Source: Bifidobacterium dentium JCM 1195 = DSM 20436 (GTDB lineage: Bacteria > Actinomycetota > Actinomycetes > Actinomycetales > Bifidobacteriaceae). Taken from it: a DNA stretch of 64,000 bases. The stretch covers positions 992,001 through 1,056,000 of the forward strand of contig NZ_AP012326.1 of the NCBI RefSeq assembly GCF_001042595.1, read 5' to 3'. This document shows positions 5,392 through 63,758 of this stretch, piece by piece. Under the pieces are notes generated by a model. It had not been told where the DNA came from. It did no database searches and was given only the letters and a program-made list of their open reading frames with translations. Each line of letters opens with the position of its first letter. Position 1 is the stretch's first letter. The position numbers and the translations under genes were made by a program.

Positions 5392-6387
5392 ATGAAGTCT
5401 GTTACCGTTGCCGGCATCGATTGCGGCACGAACTCAATCCGTTTGAAGGTCTCCCGTGTGGATGAGAACGGCGTGGAAGACATCGTGCCCCGCATTCTGC
5501 GCGTAATCCGCCTGGGGCAGGATGTCGACAAGACCCACCGTTTCGCCGATGAGGCGTTGGAACGTGCCTATGCGGCCGCTCGTGAGTTCGCCGGGATATT
5601 GGCTGAACATCCGGTCGATGGCATTCGCTTCGTGGCTACTTCGGCCACTCGCGACGCCGAGAATCGTGAAGAGTTTGAGGATGCCATCGAGCGTATTCTC
5701 GGCGTCCGTCCGGAAGTCATTCCCGGAACGGAAGAAGCCGATCTGAGTTTCCTTGGTGCGACGAGCATCGTACGCAGGGATGTCGAAGCCCCATATCTGG
5801 TGGTCGATCTGGGCGGAGGCTCCACCGAACTGGTGCTGGGCGGTGACGGTGTGACCAAGCCGGTCACGCAGGTGCAGGCGGCCTTCTCCATGAACATCGG
5901 CTCGGTACGCATGACCGAACGCCATCTCAGGAACGATCCGCCGACCGAAGCGCAGATCGACGAAGCCATCCAAGATATCGACGAGCACATCGACGAAGCA
6001 TTCCGGACCGTTCCCGCAGGCAAGGCACGCACCATCATCGGCGTGTCGGGCACGGTGACTACGATGACCGCACTGTCGATGGGGCTGACCGAATACGATC
6101 ATTCCGTGGTCGACGGAGCACGCTGCACCCTTGAGGATGCATTCGCGGTGGATGACAGGTTCCTGCGCATGCCGCGTGAGGAGCGTTTGACTTACAAGAC
6201 CATTCATCCCGGTCGTGTGGATGTGGTCGGTGGTGGTGCGCTGGTGTGGAGTCGCGTGCTCGCCAGGGTTTCCGAGGCGGCGCAGGCCGACCATGGTCAG
6301 GCCATCGATTCCTTCATGGCCAGCGAACATGGCCTGCTTGACGGTATCGTGCTGGATTACGGCACCAGATTGCTTGCTGCGCGCTGA
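5392..6387 (+). CDS. ppx: Ppx/GppA family exopolyphosphatase
   Basis: Member of the ASKHA-fold phosphatases that release phosphate from polyphosphate or hydrolyse pppGpp. It has 331 residues from the ATG at 5392, which is preceded by AAGGTGAG; the upstream GTG at 5371 lacks a ribosome binding site. Visible are the phosphate-1 motif AGIDCGTNSIRL, the phosphate-2/catalytic motif VVDLGGGSTEL and the adenosine-type loop GVSGTVTTMTAL. It is the short form without an HD domain, the usual actinobacterial Ppx1-like type. It follows DUF501 by about 30 bp. Whether polyphosphate or (p)ppGpp is the substrate cannot be read from the sequence. Confidence 0.93.
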   Translation: MKSVTVAGIDCGTNSIRLKVSRVDENGVEDIVPRILRVIRLGQDVDKTHRFADEALERAYAAAREFAGILAEHPVDGIRFVATSATRDAENREEFEDAIERILGVRPEVIPGTEEADLSFLGATSIVRRDVEAPYLVVDLGGGSTELVLGGDGVTKPVTQVQAAFSMNIGSVRMTERHLRNDPPTEAQIDEAIQDIDEHIDEAFRTVPAGKARTIIGVSGTVTTMTALSMGLTEYDHSVVDGARCTLEDAFAVDDRFLRMPREERLTYKTIHPGRVDVVGGGALVWSRVLARVSEAAQADHGQAIDSFMASEHGLLDGIVLDYGTRLLAAR

Positions 6388-6620: not shown

Positions 6621-6695
6621 CTGAATACGAAACATACCGTTATTACACTGACTGGCGTTGATAACCCGTAGATTCCATACGAACGGAAAAATGAC

Positions 6696-7265
6696 ATGAC
6701 GTCGAAAGATACCAGACCAGTAATCGAACAGCCCGCCACCGATATTCCGCTGATGCTGTCGCAGGCAATCATCATCGGCGGGGTGCTTTGCATCGGCGAG
6801 GTGATATGCTCCCCGCTGTACTACACGTTGCTGAAAAGCTCTCTGGCGTTGTTGCCATGGGCTTTGGAAGCATGTTTCATGGCGGTGGCCTTCACCTATG
6901 TCGTCGGTTTCGCGCTGCTGTGGTGCTCCGAGTCGTTCACCTTCAAACTACGCGAGAAATTCCGTGCTTTCGGATACGCCGCCGTGGGACTTATCGGCTA
7001 TGGCGTATGGAGTCTGCTGGTCTTTACCGCAACCATCAATTCCGTATTGGCCAACGTAGGTGAATCCGTGCTCACCAACGGGCAGGTCGGGGCCATTGCG
7101 CTCAATGGCGCGGCATTGGGCTTCATCGCGTTTTTGCTGGCGAAACTGCTGGATGTCGAACTCGCCAATCGCAAGGGCATGGCCATCGCTATGCTCATTG
7201 CGGAAATTGTGGTTGGCCTTGTAGGGCTGCTTATCATGATTCGCATGTTCTCTGTGCTGTACTGA
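6696..7265 (+). CDS. Hypothetical multi-pass membrane protein
   Basis: 189 residues with about five hydrophobic segments (around residues 18-45, 50-75, 90-115, 130-155 and 160-185) and a short soluble N-terminus. I do not recognise a family. The start is ATG at 6696; the ATG at 6691 is out of frame and stops at once, and the ribosome binding site is weak. It lies between tRNA-Leu and the L-serine dehydratase gene. The 38-bp gap to sdaA would allow co-transcription, and a transport-related role is only a guess from that neighbour. Confidence 0.75.
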   Translation: MTSKDTRPVIEQPATDIPLMLSQAIIIGGVLCIGEVICSPLYYTLLKSSLALLPWALEACFMAVAFTYVVGFALLWCSESFTFKLREKFRAFGYAAVGLIGYGVWSLLVFTATINSVLANVGESVLTNGQVGAIALNGAALGFIAFLLAKLLDVELANRKGMAIAMLIAEIVVGLVGLLIMIRMFSVLY

Positions 7266-42234: not shown

Positions 42235-42850
42235 TCCATAACTGTGCGCAAGCCCCTGTATCCCAATTGGTAGAGGAAGCAGCCTCAAAATCTGCGCAGT
42301 GTGGGTTCGAGTCCCACCGGGGGCACCCAAAACGGGATCTCGCGGAGAAGCGGGAACCCATGGCCCCGGGGCCGATCAGATCGGCGTCCAGGGAAGCCAT
42401 CACGAACGCGCGAGGTCCGACGGCCCCGTGCGTTTTGTTTTCTTCGCCTCCTTCCGGTTGCCTGTAGTATCGTGCCATACCCGCACCAGCTGAGGCGCTG
42501 CCGGAGGCACTGACAAGCTCATGTTGAGAATTATCACTTGGCGCATCATGCGCCAAGTGATAATCCCGATAGGCAGGCTCCTCGAAGAGATAGTCTTTGA
42601 GAGCCGTCGGAGAGACGAGAACGTAGAACGGCAGACTGAAGTACGTGGCCGCATTTGCGATATCCGCAGAAGTCCATTCAGCTTTGTTGTTCAGCTTGCG
42701 ACTGACTGATGCTTGGGCGAGACCTAAAGCGGCAGCAAAATCGCTTTGACTTTTCTCGGGGAATCGGGCTAGCAGCATTCTTATGTTGTTACGGACGATT
42801 CTCTGCATATCTTGCGCAGCTTGTGTTTGATTATTTTCTTTCTTTTGCAT
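42221..42850 (-). CDS. XRE-family repressor whose frame runs through the tRNA
   Basis: Helix-turn-helix protein with 209 residues from the ATG at 42850. The N-terminal HTH (KSQSDFAAALGLAQASVSRK) is followed by a Ser/Ala/Gly-rich linker. The last 35 residues are simply the antisense translation of tRNA-Leu (WDSNPHCADFEAAS is the tRNA itself), and the stop lies in host DNA. The functional protein probably ends earlier or has a C-terminus that depends on integration. It is divergent from the second XRE gene and is the likely master repressor of the element. Confidence 0.75.
   Translation of the reverse strand: MQKKENNQTQAAQDMQRIVRNNIRMLLARFPEKSQSDFAAALGLAQASVSRKLNNKAEWTSADIANAATYFSLPFYVLVSPTALKDYLFEEPAYRDYHLAHDAPSDNSQHELVSASGSASAGAGMARYYRQPEGGEENKTHGAVGPRAFVMASLDADLIGPGAMGSRFSARSRFGCPRWDSNPHCADFEAASSTNWDTGACAQLWNYTT
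42252..42325 (+). tRNA. tRNA-Leu (anticodon CAA), integration site
   Basis: The acceptor GCCCCTG pairs with CGGGGGC, discriminator A at 42325, T arm GTGGG-TTCGAGT-CCCAC. The anticodon loop CTCAAAA gives CAA. The total is only 74 nt with a 5-nt variable loop (class I length), unusual for leucine, and the top anticodon-stem pair is C-T. The element starts directly after the 3' end, so this tRNA is the likely attachment site. Confidence 0.85.
42530..42564. repeat. Perfect 35-bp palindrome inside the XRE repressor gene
   Basis: ATTATCACTTGGCGCAT (42530-42546) and ATGCGCCAAGTGATAAT (42548-42564) are exact inverses separated by one base. It is located in the repressor linker region about 200 bp from the attachment site. 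It could be a transcription terminator hairpin without a T-run or a binding site for an integrase or directionality factor. Confidence 0.85.
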
Positions 42851-58502: not shown

Positions 58503-58883
58503 TCAATCAACGTAAATAAATGATTGTGGAGCACTCTTCACCTCGGGCGCATACTCCGACAAGGTTCGGGGCCTGCCAAAACGGCGCACGGATCGCAGTT
58601 CGATGGCATAGGCCGTCTCCCTGCCGGCAAAGTAATCCATGAACCGATCATGGCTGATGCCACCATACCTGTTCGTGCGCTTCCAGATGTCCTCCGGAGT
58701 GGATTCCATGATGCCGCCTATCCGTGCCTCGGCCACAACCCTGCATTGCGGTCTGGTCGCATAGATGACGAGGATATCCACATCCTTACGTTTGAATATC
58801 CGACGGCGGAACTCATAGATCTTCTCTCCGGAGAGGATCTTTTCAGCGTACTCCGGCTTAACCGACAACAGGGCCTTCACCAT
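58503..58883 (-). CDS. ASCH-domain protein
   Basis: 126 residues, reverse strand. MVKALLSVKPEYAEKILSGE, EFRRRIFKRKDVDILVIYA and the C-terminal APQSFIYVD are hallmarks of ASCH (PUA-like) proteins, thought to bind RNA or modified bases. In many bacteria this subtype sits beside an acetyltransferase or an HTH gene. AGAGG precedes the ATG. It overlaps the end of a short upstream frame (58858-59025) by 26 bp. Confidence 0.85.
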   Translation of the reverse strand: MVKALLSVKPEYAEKILSGEKIYEFRRRIFKRKDVDILVIYATRPQCRVVAEARIGGIMESTPEDIWKRTNRYGGISHDRFMDYFAGRETAYAIELRSVRRFGRPRTLSEYAPEVKSAPQSFIYVD

Positions 58884-59025
58884 TAGCCTCTCCCATCCTG
58901 AGAATCGTTTCGAATGGATGTTCGTTAATTACCACGCGGGTTAGTCGCTCGTTGGCATTGATGACCTGCGCGCTGATGAGTCCTTCCCGGTTGGGACGAT
59001 GGTTGAGGGGAAAGCCGAACAGCAT
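58858..59025 (-). CDS. 55-residue protein, perhaps the 3' end of a lost gene
   Basis: ATG 59025 without a ribosome binding site, natural composition (LISAQVINANERLTRVVINE), overlapping the ASCH gene. ASCH genes of this type often follow a partner gene, so this may be the surviving C-terminus of that partner, truncated when the structured segment at 59222 was formed or inserted. Confidence 0.4.
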   Translation of the reverse strand: MLFGFPLNHRPNREGLISAQVINANERLTRVVINEHPFETILRMGEANGEGPVVG

Positions 59026-59221
59026 CGAAATCACTCATCGGTGTTCCCCACCGTTCCGGAAATTCTCAAGTCCCTTCCCGTCTTCGGCTTCCATCATCCG
59101 ACTCTTTCTGGACGGTCCGCAATCATGCCATCACGCCGTAAACGGACCCTCCGCCTGTGGCTCCGGGACCATCCCGACAACGGACCGTGCCCCGCCATGC
59201 CCTGGCGCGGCGGGGCCGGGA

Positions 59222-59405
59222 AACGGAACGGCACGCAGGCGTGCCGCCATCCTGTGATTTTCTTTCGGACCGTTCGGCTACGCCGAATGATCGTAACGGC
59301 CTGCCGCGTCCGCGCCACGCATCCCGAACTTCGTTCGGCGTGCTCGCGGACGCTGCGGCCGTCAGCGCTGACGCTCGACCAAACGGTCCGAAAGAAAAAA
59401 ATCAG
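59222..59405 (+). ncRNA. Structured non-coding element, copy A
   Basis: AACGGAACGG leads into the hairpin GGCACGC-AG-GCGTGCC (59230-59245). The long-range helix GATTTTCTTTCGGACCGTT (59256-59274) with AACGGTCCGAAAGAAAA and more (59382-59403) encloses 107 nt containing a second nested helix (59298-59314 with 59345-59360). Conserved unpaired TCGGCTA (59274) and CGCTCGACCAA (59372) recur in copy B. It lies in the 408-bp gap 59026-59433 and ends about 20 nt before the AAGGAGG of the DUF4192 gene, so it could be its leader or an independent RNA. Base changes against copy B keep pairing. Confidence 0.6.
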
Positions 59406-59433
59406 GGACTAACCGGATTCAAGGAGGTTCATC

Positions 59434-60045
59434 ATGAACGACACCGCAGCCATGACCATCAAACAGACCGCCGAGGAGTTCGCACGCGCGAGGGAACGGC
59501 ACGATTGGCGGGAAATCGCGGGCGAGTGGTTCGAAGCTCCCGTCAGGAGATGGATCGGAACCCTCGACGCCGACGGCGAGCCGGAAGACGATACGGGGGA
59601 CGCCATCACCCTCGCCGTGGGCATGAGGGAATTCCTCTCCCTACGGGACGTCATGCTCGTCGCCGCCATCTGCGGGGAACGGACGGACTTCACCGCGGAC
59701 AGGGCCATCGACTTCCTCAGACGCCCGATGATAAGGAACAACGTCCGGTGGATGGAGAACATGCTCACCGAAACGTTCCACGGGTCGCAGGCGCCCGACC
59801 GGCAACGTTGCATGAAAGCCGTGGACCTCCTGCTCGCCCTCATCGACCGATTGGACGGCGAGGACGACGGATGGCAGGCGCAACCCTATGCGACCGTCGC
59901 ATACATCCTGTGGTGGCTCGGCGACGAACGCGCCCTGCCCATGGCCGTCCGCGCCCTCGCCTGCGACGAGGGATGCTCCCTCGCCATCATCGTGGCCAGC
60001 GCCATCCGTGCCGGCATCCACCCGGACCGCACGAACGCCGAATGA
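59434..60045 (+). CDS. DUF4192-like protein
   Basis: 203 residues; perfect AAGGAGG 6 nt before the ATG. Helical protein. The C-terminal ATVAYILWWLGDERALPMAV and SLAIIVASAIRAGI match the actinobacterial DUF4192 pattern (a helical-repeat region ending in a short-chain count of Ala/Leu helices). Function is unknown; DUF4192 genes are common on actinobacterial plasmids and phages. Flanked on both sides by the structured elements A and B. Confidence 0.7.
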   Translation: MNDTAAMTIKQTAEEFARARERHDWREIAGEWFEAPVRRWIGTLDADGEPEDDTGDAITLAVGMREFLSLRDVMLVAAICGERTDFTADRAIDFLRRPMIRNNVRWMENMLTETFHGSQAPDRQRCMKAVDLLLALIDRLDGEDDGWQAQPYATVAYILWWLGDERALPMAVRALACDEGCSLAIIVASAIRAGIHPDRTNAE

Positions 60046-60269
60046 CAGGCAATCCGGCCGCCCCCCGCACCGAGGCGGCCGGAACCGCCCCGGTGCCGTA
60101 TGACCGCGGGATCGACCCCGCGCCATACGGCATCCCGCGTCCCGCGTCGGCGGGCCGGAGGGGACGTATCCGCCTCCCCCTCCCGGACCTCCCTCACGGC
60201 CGGAAACCCGATGTTTCCGGACCTTCGCGAAACCCGCGGCCCGGGACCGGAGGCCCGGGCCACGCGTCC

Positions 60270-60467
60270 AACGGAACGGCACGCAGGCATGCCGCCGCCC
60301 AATGGTTTTTCTTTTTTGCCGGTCGGCTAAAGCCTTGGATCATATCGGCGTCGCGGAACCCGTCAAACCCGCCGCGCACGGTCCCAAGGGCCCGGGGCGT
60401 CGCGTTTGACGGAACCCGCCCGAGGCCGATAACGCTTCGCTTGACCAACCGGCCAAAAAGAAAAAAT
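60270..60467 (+). ncRNA. Structured non-coding element, copy B
   Basis: Same order as copy A: AACGGAACGG, the hairpin GGCACGC-AG-GCATGCC (one mismatch), and the long helix TTTTTCTTTTTTGCCGGT (60306-60323) with ACCGGCCAAAAAGAAAAAA (60448-60466). The conserved TCGGCTA (60323) and CGCTTGACCAA (60438) are present, with an inner 9-bp helix CCGTCAAAC/GTTTGACGG (60360/60404). The upstream part of the gap (60046-60269) also folds into several GC-rich hairpins, for example GTGCCGTATG...CATACGGCAT around 60092-60130, and holds no gene. It precedes the small membrane-protein gene at 60510. Confidence 0.6.
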
Positions 60468-60509
60468 CAAGGCCGCAACAGGACCCCAGCCAGGCGAAAG
60501 GAACAAGAA

Positions 60510-60710
60510 ATGTTCGGATTCCTCAACCTCCTCACACCGGACGACCGTGCGGAACTCGTCGGCAACATCCTCCTACTCATCGTCATCGCGATACCCACCG
60601 CCGTCGTAAACGCCGGCCGTATCCGCCGACGCATCACCCGCACATGGCGAATCCTCAGGAAAGGCACCTCCGCCACCCGCACCATCATCGGCCGAGCAGG
60701 CATCCGATAG
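60510..60710 (+). CDS. Small membrane protein
   Basis: 66 residues, AAAGGAAC upstream. One hydrophobic helix (LVGNILLLIVIAIPTAVV) follows a short N-terminus; the C-terminal half is strongly basic (RIRRRITRTWRILRKG) and cytoplasmic. No family recognised. Starts about 43 bp after structured element B. Confidence 0.6.
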   Translation: MFGFLNLLTPDDRAELVGNILLLIVIAIPTAVVNAGRIRRRITRTWRILRKGTSATRTIIGRAGIR

Positions 60711-60785
60711 GAAAAAGACACGTCGGGACGTCCGATATCAACGGGCGCCACCCGTGAAAAACCGGAACAAAGAAGGGCAAGAACA

Positions 60786-61145
60786 ATGTGCAACTACAAG
60801 CTGACCGTCACCATCAGCAAGTCCACCGACATCGTAGACGGCGGCGGCTGGGCCACCGGCATGACCTGGCGCAAGACCGTCATCCTCGAGGAATCCGAAC
60901 GGGCCGACGCCATCGCCCTGCGCGACCTGCTCAACGGCGGCAGACCCGCGACCGACGACCTGGGATACCTCATGTGGGACCGCTGCTACGGAATGTGCAA
61001 TCCGCAATGCTGGCAATGGGAACTCGCCTGCCGTCACAGCGCATGCGTCAACCAGATCCTGCGCAAGGCCGGCATCGACTGGCCCGAGGACGGTCTGCCC
61101 GACATCGACCTGCCAACCATCACCATCAACCTCGCGATATGCTAA
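60786..61145 (+). CDS. Hypothetical protein with clustered cysteines
   Basis: 119 residues; AGAAGGGC upstream. MCNYKLTVTISKS begins a beta-rich half, and a Cys/Trp-rich segment follows (YGMCNPQCWQWELACRHSAC), perhaps a metal site or disulfide cluster. No family recognised. Its stop overlaps the ATG of the following broken HTH gene. Confidence 0.68.
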   Translation: MCNYKLTVTISKSTDIVDGGGWATGMTWRKTVILEESERADAIALRDLLNGGRPATDDLGYLMWDRCYGMCNPQCWQWELACRHSACVNQILRKAGIDWPEDGLPDIDLPTITINLAIC

Positions 61146-61484
61146 CCGGAAAGGAGACCGCCGGACCCGCATGGCGGTTGAAGCAGGAGGGCAAGACCCA
61201 GAACGAGATCGCGGAAATGCTCGGCAAAAGCCAGTCCACCATCAGCACCGCGATCAGCCGCGAACGCAACCGTCGCATGGGCGAAAGCCCCGAACCGTCA
61301 AGGCCCGGCGACGAGACTCGCGGCATGAGTCAAACCCCGGTTCCCGACGGCGCATATGATCCCGTCATCCCGGCCGATCCGAGGTCGGGCGAAAAACAAC
61401 GCGGACGGGTCGGAAAACCTCATGAGGGAAGCGTACCGGCAGGGCGTCGCGCAGGCAATGAGCCAGTTCGGCATCGAAACCTGA
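61139..61484 (+). pseudogene. Frameshifted HTH gene, partial duplicate of the 44381 gene
   Basis: From ATG 61139 the frame encodes AWRLKQEGKTQNEIAEMLGK and SQSTISTAISRERNRRM, nearly identical to the second HTH of the protein encoded at 44381 (one Q-to-E/M stretch differs). The frame then stays open into the next gene. A sensible end exists only in another frame (KNNADGSENLMREAY...SQFGIET, stop 61484), reached by a shift near the A-run at 61392. Probably a sequence frameshift. The 61139 start overlaps the previous stop (ATGCTAA). Confidence 0.6.
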
Positions 61485-61526
61485 CGAATACCTTCGAAAT
61501 CACCATCATCGGAAAGGAAAGATCCT

Positions 61527-62270
61527 TTGGAAACCGAACGCATCATGGAACGCGTGCGCAGACTGCTCGCCCTCGCCAACGATCCGGCCGCGTCCGACAA
61601 CGAGCAGCGTATCGCCCTCGAACAGGCACAACGGCTCATGGACAGGCACGCCATCGAGCAATGGCAGCTCGAAAAGGACCACGACGACATCGAGATCATC
61701 CGCAAGAAGATCGACCTGGAAACGAATCCATGCAACCGTTTCATGGCCAGCCTCGCGTACATCGTGGCCCAAGGGAACCGCTGCCGTGCCACCTACTGGT
61801 TCCGCAAGGCCGGAAACGGCCGGAGCGTCATCACCGGAATCACGCTCTACGGCGTCCGCTCCGACGTCGACAAGACCGAGGCGATCTGGACCGCCATGGA
61901 AACCAGCCGCGCCGTCATGTGGCGGGAACGCGCCAGGACGACACGCAACGCGAAAGCGAACGCCGCCTGGAGGAACGGCTACTACCAGGGCTTCCAGGAG
62001 GAGATCGCCCACCGGTACGAGATCCTCCGCCGGGAAATGGAATCGGACGACACGGGCAGGGAACTGGTCGCCGTCCGCTCCGACCAGGTCGACGCGTGGA
62101 TCGAAGCCAACGTCACATTCGCCGCCAAGCACCCGAAACTGGCCGGGATCGCCCGGGCCAGCCGCGCCGCCTACCGGCATGGCCGCGAGGACGGATCACG
62201 ACAGGCGATCGGCCTGACGGAAACCGGCGGGACAAGCCAACGGACCCTGCAGGCAAGACGGAACCAGTGA
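61527..62270 (+). CDS. DUF2786 domain protein
   Basis: 247 residues. TTG 61527 is chosen as start (GGAAAGGAAAG upstream); ATG 61545 is the alternative. The N-terminal RVRRLLALANDPAASDNEQR and ALEQAQRLMDRHAIEQWQ are the DUF2786 signature (about 1-45). The rest is a helical DUF7168-like part with many Arg/Ala. Such proteins are common on actinobacterial plasmids and phages, without known function. The exonuclease gene follows 13 bp later. Confidence 0.8.
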   Translation: METERIMERVRRLLALANDPAASDNEQRIALEQAQRLMDRHAIEQWQLEKDHDDIEIIRKKIDLETNPCNRFMASLAYIVAQGNRCRATYWFRKAGNGRSVITGITLYGVRSDVDKTEAIWTAMETSRAVMWRERARTTRNAKANAAWRNGYYQGFQEEIAHRYEILRREMESDDTGRELVAVRSDQVDAWIEANVTFAAKHPKLAGIARASRAAYRHGREDGSRQAIGLTETGGTSQRTLQARRNQ

Positions 62271-62283
62271 AAGGAAACAACAC

Positions 62284-62922
62284 ATGTATTGGGATCGCTA
62301 CATCAACCGAAATAATCCACGTCGCATCGAACCACTCGACAAGCCGCTCGACACGTACGTGATGCTTGACACGGAAACCACGGGACTCCATCCCGAGGAA
62401 GGAGCCACGATCATCGAGATCGGCGCATTGCTCGTGACGCCGGGCAACGAGAACGCAAGGCCGAGGTTCGAGCAGCTGGTCGACCCGCAACGTCCATTGC
62501 CGGAATTCATCAGCCGACTCACCGGCATCAGCGACGGCATGCTTCGGGACAAGCCCACCGCCGATGCCGCGATGCTGCGCTTCCACCAATGGCTCGACGA
62601 CGTCTGGCCGACAGGGAAACCCTTGACCATCATCGCCCACAACGCCGAATTCGACATCGGCTTCCTTGACGCGGCCGAACGCGCCCATGATCCGGATGCG
62701 AACGAGTTCGACTGCCGTTGGCTGTGCACGAAGGAGATGAGCTGGGAGCTCAACCCGCGGAAACGCCATCACCGCGTCAGCGACCTGATCGTCGACTACC
62801 GCATCGGGGACGTCGAGGAACATCGCGCGCTGTCCGACGCGATCCAGGAGCAGATGATCTACCGGGCCCTGTGCCGGGAAGCGAGCATGCGAGGGAGGTG
62901 GGGACGGGAACGAGTCTCATGA
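62284..62922 (+). CDS. DnaQ-like 3'-5' exonuclease (DEDDh)
   Basis: 212 residues; GAAAGGAAAC upstream. Complete ExoI (MLDTETTGLHPEEGATIIEI), ExoII (IIAHNAEFDIGFLDAA) and ExoIII (HRALSDAIQEQMIY, with the catalytic His) motifs show an active proofreading-type or RNase T-type exonuclease resembling the polymerase III epsilon chain. With SSB downstream it suggests a replication or repair module of the element. A hairpin at 63031 ends the transcript. Confidence 0.9.
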   Translation: MYWDRYINRNNPRRIEPLDKPLDTYVMLDTETTGLHPEEGATIIEIGALLVTPGNENARPRFEQLVDPQRPLPEFISRLTGISDGMLRDKPTADAAMLRFHQWLDDVWPTGKPLTIIAHNAEFDIGFLDAAERAHDPDANEFDCRWLCTKEMSWELNPRKRHHRVSDLIVDYRIGDVEEHRALSDAIQEQMIYRALCREASMRGRWGRERVS

Positions 62923-63030
62923 CGGGTTGCCTCAAATGGTTGGCGTCATGCGTGCCGGCGCAGCGAACCTGATAGGCTGAAGACATGTATTCATCGGGGT
63001 CCCCGCCCGGGTCCTTTGAATATGGGGTTG

Positions 63031-63066
63031 TTTCAGGGGAGGATTCCATCCTCCCCTGAAATGTCT
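63031..63066 (+). terminator. Hairpin terminator after the exonuclease gene
   Basis: TTTCAGGGGAGGAT (63031-63044) pairs perfectly with ATCCTCCCCTGAAA (63048-63061) around a 3-nt loop, followed by TGTCTTT. The remainder of the 356-bp gap 62923-63278 holds no gene; its right part is the ssb leader. Confidence 0.8.
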
Positions 63067-63278
63067 TTCACGGGCCCCATCCCGATACTGATCCATTGCC
63101 GAGGGGAGCGAAGAGGCAACCCCAGACGGCCGATCGCAGGAAGGATCACAGGATCAAGACCCGCAAGCCACGGCATCCCAACCGGAAACAGCTTGCGGAC
63201 GATGATATCAGCGAGGATTGAAGTGGAGTGAATGAGCCCGTCAAAAGAGACGGGCCATCCACGAGGAAAGGATCCATC

Positions 63279-63758
63279 ATGGCAACCATCAACCAGATTC
63301 CCATGACCATCATGGGCAATCTCGTATCAGGCCTCGAACCCAAGCGCACGTCGGGCGGCAAAACCGTCGTCAACTTCCGGGTCGCGCAGACCAGCAGCAC
63401 CGAGAGGAACGGCAAATGGGAGGATGGCGCGACCACGTTCATCCGATGCGTGGCGTACGGTCCGATCGCCGAGCACATGACCGAGTCCGGGATGGGCAAG
63501 GGCACAAGGGTCGTCGTTACGGGACGATACGTGCAGCGTGACTATCAGACCGAGGCGGGGGAGAGACGCAGCGTCTACGAACTCGTTGCGGACGATATCG
63601 GGGCGTCGGTACGATACGCGACCGTCCGGATCACCAAGGTCAACGGAAACGCACAGCGGTCCGTACCGGCCCAACAACAGCCCCGGATGATGCGGACGGA
63701 TCCGTGGCCGGCCACGACCCAGGATCGGTTCGCGGAACCGCAGGAACCGAGCCTCTGA
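63279..63758 (+). CDS. ssb: Single-stranded DNA-binding protein
   Basis: 159 residues from ATG 63279 (GAAAGGA upstream). OB-fold with NFRVAQTSSTERNGKWEDG and FIRCVAYGPIAEHM, GKGTRVVVTGRYVQRDY and the strand VYELVADDIGASVRY. The C-terminal tail is Gln/Pro-rich and ends EPQEPSL, lacking the acidic DDxPF tip that recruits partner proteins in chromosomal SSB. Likely a second, element-specific SSB for its own replication or transfer. Confidence 0.92.
   Translation: MATINQIPMTIMGNLVSGLEPKRTSGGKTVVNFRVAQTSSTERNGKWEDGATTFIRCVAYGPIAEHMTESGMGKGTRVVVTGRYVQRDYQTEAGERRSVYELVADDIGASVRYATVRITKVNGNAQRSVPAQQQPRMMRTDPWPATTQDRFAEPQEPSL

Follow-up and report, generated by a model that had tools for sequence, protein, structure and literature searches.

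Structured DNA elements with promoter boxes as candidate single-stranded promoters in conjugative elements of Bifidobacteriaceae

In the Frpo mechanism, as set out in the relevant passages of two articles, single-stranded DNA folds into a promoter with −35 and −10 boxes that serves leading-region genes (PMC11541004, PMC9849209); such passages give early expression from single-stranded DNA as documented in F and as a proposal in the case of ColIb-P9, and the mechanism is so far known chiefly from plasmids of the E. coli type. Passages of a further article mention Frpo for Gram-negative plasmids only (PMC12614216), and titles and abstract openings of the open-access literature on single-stranded DNA promoters in Gram-positive bacteria, Actinobacteria and Bifidobacterium report no such elements. 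The nearest Gram-positive analogue among those found is EGeRS1 of the Bacillus plasmid pLS20, whose authors, in the passages concerned, regarded a single-stranded DNA promoter as highly unlikely for reasons that include the strand (PMC8708921).

Here we describe a family of structured elements represented by two copies, A and B, in the window (the whole stretch of 64,000 nucleotides analysed, from Bifidobacterium dentium JCM 1195 = DSM 20436). A preliminary description of this DNA had taken them for structured non-coding elements. Selection on structure is borne out by the data below, yet the evidence points to a structure that belongs to the DNA of the strand opposite the genes, where it holds a sigma-70-type promoter, rather than to RNA. 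Judging by folding models and comparative evidence, we consider it quite likely that the elements act as single-stranded DNA promoters for the leading-region genes of conjugative elements, similar to Frpo/ssi in function and unrelated to them in sequence.

Two copies in an integrated conjugative element

Copies A and B lie inside a conjugative element integrated at a tRNA-Leu gene (42252-42325; the anticodon was called Leu by eye from the sequence, without a tRNA tool). The left end of the element is marked by 24 bp at the tRNA-Leu end (42304..42327, plus strand) that recur exactly ~72.6 kb further on, adjoining the integrase gene, and the element runs for ~72.6 kb from 42304 to about 114930, past the end of the window, with the integrase gene at its far end. 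Besides the integrase it encodes a coupling protein, a TrwC-type relaxase with helicase domains and SSB. A gene with cell-surface antigen I/II domains is found in the same element (L322:1225-5334).

The gene between the two copies (59434..60045, plus strand) starts with an ATG 34 nt past the stem of copy A, preceded by a Shine-Dalgarno sequence at 59421-59427. Its assignment to DUF4192 in the preliminary description was right as to the match, which is present, and somewhat generous as to its strength, since 26.8 bits fall just under the Pfam cut-off of 27.8. Behind copy B, a 66-aa gene (60510..60710, plus strand) starts 44 nt past the stem, with a Shine-Dalgarno-like sequence at 60497-60503, and is followed by co-directional genes for a 119-aa protein, a DUF2786 protein, a DnaQ-type exonuclease and SSB (60786..63758, plus strand). 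The relaxase gene comes after that for SSB, beyond the window and in the same direction. To the left of copy A, an ASCH-domain gene occupies 58503-58883 on the opposite (minus) strand.

Both copies are predicted to form hairpins on the minus strand (T-strand), at 59259..59400 for A and 60308..60466 for B. The two related structured elements described earlier, each with the long helix and the shared anchors, are confirmed at the places given. The arms are 95% complementary in copy A (59258-59277/59379-59398) and 90% in copy B (60306-60326/60445-60465), the window contains two instances of the anchors CGGCTA...CGNTYGACCAA as opposed to 0.01 expected, and the plus-strand RNA folds of A and B are better than 200 of 200 shuffles (z −6.1 and −3.8). 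The common order of parts proposed earlier holds for anchors and helix; the small AACGGAACGGCACGC hairpin, in contrast, is a flanking one, outside the core covered by the model, and lies at 59229..59246 by copy A, on the side distal to the gene, and at 60277..60294 by copy B (no strand assigned). GC-rich hairpins are also seen at 60046-60300 and in the left flanks of other copies, directly on the non-gene side, and the flank hairpins of several copies are preceded by an AACGGARCGGC-like sequence; insulator, terminator or single-stranded DNA shield are candidate roles for these GC-rich hairpins. Rfam at the gathering score returned only two tRNAs for the whole window and, at E ≤ 5 within 58900-60800, two chance-like matches far below the cut-off, GOLLD, ROOL and HEARO being among the families with no gathering-score match, in keeping with the earlier statement that no named RNA class has these parts.

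Within copy B (all on the minus strand), the outer helix consists of a template-side arm that includes the pyrimidine tract (60445..60466) and of the other arm at 60308..60326. A −35-like TTGACG (60361..60366) is separated by 16 nt from a −10-like TATGAT (60339..60344). Opposite the −10, the template arm carries a GCGAAGC mini-hairpin (60434..60440) that is paired in the consensus structure, though copy B's own best DNA fold leaves it unpaired, and immediately beyond the −10 the non-template arm has a second consensus mini-hairpin (60325..60334). Spacing from the −10 would place the RNA start near 60448 on the plus strand. Copy A has a −10-like TACGAT (59290..59295, minus strand), in which one pair has gone from A-T to G-C with both sides altered, the pairing partner changing from GGTCA to GGTCG; no TTGAC stands at the place of the −35. 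Copy B is a full family member, and copy A, with structure and −10 but without a −35, may be weak, decayed or differently read.

Relatives and conserved pairing

Through a DUF2786 homologue we reached the gut scaffold MT839575, where a third copy lies close to syntenic genes. Anchor patterns then revealed copies in further genomes, and MT837197, likewise a human-gut scaffold, holds another. A covariance model built from six copies (R1) matched 13 of 112 genomes of the genus at E ≤ 0.05 (one marginal, E 0.048), with 11 matches in a single genome; copy B, part of its seed, scored 152 bits, and copy A, which is not, scored 87. With the second model (R2, from 26 copies), which gave 100.8 bits for A and 139.5 for B, matches at E ≤ 0.01 were obtained in 24 of 189 family genomes, spread over four of 16 genera; 22 of the 24 are firm and two lie at E of about 0.003. 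Across a phylum sample of 396 genomes R2 recovered the own genome and one partial match (E 0.005). All these wide model searches used stricter filters, which lose weak matches. An exact pattern search of named genomes gave 14 loci, all in Bifidobacterium (aquikefiri, biavatii, rousetti, tibiigranuli, psychraerophilum, subtile, tissieri and one MAG).

Out of 91 R2 matches, 52 were kept, after removal of 32 complementary-strand duplicates, four copies truncated by contig ends and three weak ones (L317 5871 and 3246; L237 1784), and merging of identical copies left 44 distinct complete ones. A partial copy at the start of MT839575 (L187:1-160), before an SSB gene, was excluded because the scaffold start repeats an internal stretch and may be misassembled. 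The 44 copies form 17 clusters, and since copies and loci are mutually related, the counts below overstate the independent evidence. One genome shows divergent weak matches that keep TTGACG and have other outer arms (L239:1514-1665, 5879-6026 and 6682-6828), perhaps a second subfamily.

A scan of 187 records for the helix gave it nowhere but in the window and in the own genome's loci; seven other loci each had a single match with 10-11 of the 14 pairs, which we regard as chance. With copy A as query, DNA similarity searches returned a single short match among plasmids and two among genomes of the genus; copy E returned one short match among plasmids and, among phages, the two gut scaffolds. 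The loose anchor pattern had at least 120 matches in viral contigs, where further patterns gave 0, 7 and 0, the seven being without a model match, and where no DUF4192 homologue was confirmed; DUF4192, present in 111 of 112 genus genomes, is too widespread to guide a search.

Pairing is conserved throughout the family. Across 43 distinct rows, aligned so as to fit the structure, standard pairs make up 94.0% of cells as compared to 77.7 in shuffles, 33 of 44 pairs are altered on both sides (20.2 in shuffles), and both-side-changed cells number 248 (64.1 in shuffles); with the structure slid along the alignment, the maxima are 20 pairs and 54 cells. A MAFFT alignment of the first six copies already contained eight both-side-changed pairs, and 19 representatives less than 80% identical, counted for Watson-Crick pairs only, retain 33 pairs vs. 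16.6 and 120 cells vs. 28.9. The pairing-preserving changes in the long helix, noted at first between A and B, are real and recur across 43 distinct relatives, and the preliminary description's own test of structural selection, namely covariation among further homologues, came out in its favour. The minus strand supports the structure somewhat better, as some of its conserved T.G/G.T wobbles become C.A/A.C mismatches on the plus strand: paired columns of the minus (model) strand hold 43 G.T vs. 19 A.C (22 vs. 11 in the representatives), an excess that may be favoured because the model was built on that strand. GNA and GNNA loops give unusually stable DNA mini-hairpins, and the GC[loop]GC mini-hairpin of the template arm has the loop GAA in 14, GAAA in 11, GAGA in eight and GATA in two of the 44 copies, the other nine having a different one or none.

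Promoter boxes, downstream genes and polarity

The motif TTGAC[A/G]-N15-17-TAnnnT occurs on the strand opposite the genes (model strand, T-strand) in 40 of 44 copies, as against 0.035 expected from Markov sequences, and on the gene strand in none of the 44; 26 of the copies had also served to build R2. In the 40, copy B included, the boxes are placed for transcription into the downstream gene from a single-stranded DNA template; copy A, with its −35 absent, is one of the four copies that lack full boxes. Its relative at MT837197 14-155 likewise has no −35; in G060 the −10 is replaced by TGTGAT, and in G040 it has been lost. The fifth base of the −10 differs from A in 14 of the 40 boxes, mostly as TATGCT. 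While spacer and outer-helix pairs vary, the boxes vary little, and in DNA folds of the 40 box-bearing copies the mean pairing probability per base is 0.61-1.0 for the −35 and 0.55-0.77 for the −10. Judged by prediction and covariation, the strand would form an intrastrand hairpin that makes up a duplex promoter.

A looser count (up to three mismatches to TTGACA/TATAAT) gave 38 of 44 copies on the model strand (1.4 expected) and 12 of 44 on the gene strand (2.8 expected). The gene-strand sites are of several kinds and in several places, copy B included, whose site at the stem reads TTGACC-15-AAAAAT, so that an ordinary promoter towards the gene is possible in some copies. Weak gene-strand sites are seen in the window (59290-60466) and in L243-L245 and L247, one example among them being TTGACC-18-TATCCT before DUF4160-type genes. 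Our first idea, a plus-strand stem promoter (TTGACC, AAAAAT), was dropped because the opposite strand carries TTGACG-16-TATGAT, although such gene-strand sites do exist in some copies.

Downstream of the stem, 32 of 44 copies have a start codon with a Shine-Dalgarno match and an open reading frame of at least 60 aa within 110 nt, mostly at 25-49 nt; by the rule used, the other 12 have no start codon with such a match. Start codons lie on the gene side in 30 of 42 cases, compared to nine of 42 on the other side. Eight of 20 first genes match Pfam at E ≤ 0.01 (including a weak DUF4192, DUF3846, DUF4160 and ChlI) and 12 match nothing. PADLOC, run on ten proteins, returned exonuclease-type matches for the DnaQ-like protein and one weak Cas3 match.

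In all 31 copies that could be scored, from 21 loci, the gene strand points to the nearest relaxase gene, itself on that strand, over 1.5-11.1 kb; several of these loci are near-identical, hence the 21 do not amount to 21 independent cases. For 16 of the 21, the relaxase was located only after the polarity had been proposed. The count covers contigs with a relaxase hit (leaving aside G152, G160 C16, G068 C5/C7/C16 and two scaffolds) and takes the nearer relaxase where a contig has two (G130, G140); it omits G040, which lay outside the PF03432 search, and G141, whose contig of 42,795 bases has the relaxase at the opposite end and would agree only as a circle. The relaxases near copies are of both the TrwC type and the MobA/VirD2 type. 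Such polarity is as expected for a leading region in which the transferred strand serves as template. YATCCTG sites, examined as marks of oriT/nic, were inconsistent across loci, and with nic not pinpointed the transferred strand is deduced from the position of the relaxase. A GTCGCTGCGCTGGC block common to five of 16 loci (L185, L310, L306, L307, L311) lies upstream of the relaxase gene, in L185 just before mobC, and is a candidate oriT.

Proposed mechanism, rival readings and known systems

The transferred strand, transcription, its timing and its shut-off are what we infer for these elements, as follows. Transfer would begin between the relaxase gene and the leading genes, which would enter the recipient first, making the transferred strand the model strand and the template for the genes. 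The strand complementary to the genes would thus arrive in the recipient single-stranded, and each element in it would fold into a long imperfect hairpin, the 3′ arm (with TTGACG-16-TATGAT in copy B) serving as the non-template and the 5′ arm as the template strand of a promoter duplex. Within this duplex the −35 would be mostly well paired and the −10 held less firmly, at a junction that allows a GNA/GNNA mini-hairpin to be extruded from the template arm. Starting from this duplex, RNA polymerase would run along the 5′ arm into the adjoining gene, so that DUF4192-, DUF3846- and DUF4160-like and nameless establishment genes and, further on, SSB could be made while the second strand is still absent. 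In double-stranded DNA the boxes point away from the gene, and early expression would therefore switch off; there, the same boxes could drive real transcription the opposite way. It seems to us reasonably likely that actinobacterial conjugative elements possess their own, independently evolved single-stranded DNA promoters, arranged in regulons of up to ~eleven copies, with the −10 at a mini-hairpin junction, and, as part of the same reading and with the same likelihood, that strandedness is the switch: on towards the genes in single-stranded DNA, away from them in double-stranded DNA.

The boxes are also good sigma-70 matches in double-stranded DNA, and flank hairpins beside the element could terminate an RNA made from there, so that the elements might be promoters directed away from the gene, yielding an antisense or regulatory RNA, with a helix that is incidental or serves that RNA. 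We think this unlikely, because it does not account for paired changes that extend through all 150 nt, including the spacer and the −10, for the location upstream of start codons on the opposite strand (30/42 vs. 9/42) or for the polarity towards the relaxase. Comparably unlikely is a structured 5′ leader of an mRNA, or an ordinary double-stranded promoter-operator, in a place comparable to that of EGeRS1 in pLS20: the elements are stable as RNA folds too, lie closely upstream of ribosome binding sites, recur before several genes and, on the gene strand, show weak sites resembling promoters in excess of expectation (12/44 vs. 2.8). These sites, however, are heterogeneous, whereas the opposite strand has one conserved box pair (38/44 in the same count); G.T exceeds A.C (43 vs. 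19) on that other strand, the reverse of what G.U pairs of an mRNA would give, albeit with a model built there; and Rfam has no match.

A start of primer formation or complementary-strand replication (ssi/sso) on the transferred single strand, in place of a gene promoter, would draw on the ability of single-stranded hairpins that contain promoter boxes to prime synthesis; both uses, promoter and priming, are reportedly named for Frpo in the title of Masai and Arai 1997. Eleven matches in one genome and a gene distance of mostly 25-49 nt are more than a replication start needs, which makes this improbable as a sole function, though the two roles are not exclusive. Of the functions guessed at in the preliminary description, a single-strand origin came closest in that the function is one of single strands, the best reading being a single-stranded DNA promoter. 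Another of its suggestions, a miniature transposon or attC-like recombination site, has the long inverted arms and several copies on its side and is nevertheless a poor fit that we give hardly any credence: orientation to the relaxase is uniform in 31 of 31 testable copies, the distance to the start codon is mostly the same, and compensating changes keep the arms complementary among copies less than 80% identical.

If the single-stranded promoter reading is true, early expression from single-stranded DNA would be a more general principle, reached in Bifidobacteriaceae by a non-homologous family; leading regions and transfer polarity would become readable from sequence, with a gene list (DUF4192, DUF3846, DUF4160 and nameless genes) that may aid establishment in a new host. 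Covariation defines the geometry tightly enough for it to be tested in a single in vitro reaction.

The elements share with Frpo/ssi of F and ColIb-P9, as described in passages of the two articles, a structured single-stranded DNA with −35 and −10 boxes upstream of leading genes such as ssb and the presence of more than one copy per element (PMC11541004, PMC9849209). In F, too, most leading genes point to the tra end, and there are two repeated structured segments, one just before ssb. R2 found no match in 17.5 kb of F including the leading region, and the repeated F segments have no box site with up to three mismatches, only TTGACG-17-TTTTGT (four mismatches) on the T-strand; the likeness to F is therefore one of function and layout, not of sequence. 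The bifidobacterial elements measure ~150 nt and the F segments are longer (an alignment of 559 columns). Unlike Frpo, the present family mostly has TTGACG-16-TATGAT or a near form, with the mini-hairpin junction at the −10, and occurs in Bifidobacteriaceae with TrwC-type and MobA/VirD2-type relaxases.

EGeRS1 is, according to passages of the pLS20 article, likewise GC-rich, structured, repeated and upstream of Gram-positive establishment genes; it is longer (about 300-600 nt), has no putative promoter in its structure and has the transferred strand as non-template, whereas the present family has conserved boxes and a polarity that would suit the transferred strand, as placed by us, being the template (PMC8708921). 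Samuel et al. 2024, in the passages available, sought −35 and −10 boxes in folded leading-region DNA as we did and proposed the same mechanism; they report no significant Frpo similarity in the islands of S. pneumoniae (Gram-positive) or of an insect metagenome, and a more sensitive search that gave candidates in the insect island, those passages stating none for S. pneumoniae. By comparison, the family described here is supported by covariation and by 21 loci of one polarity.
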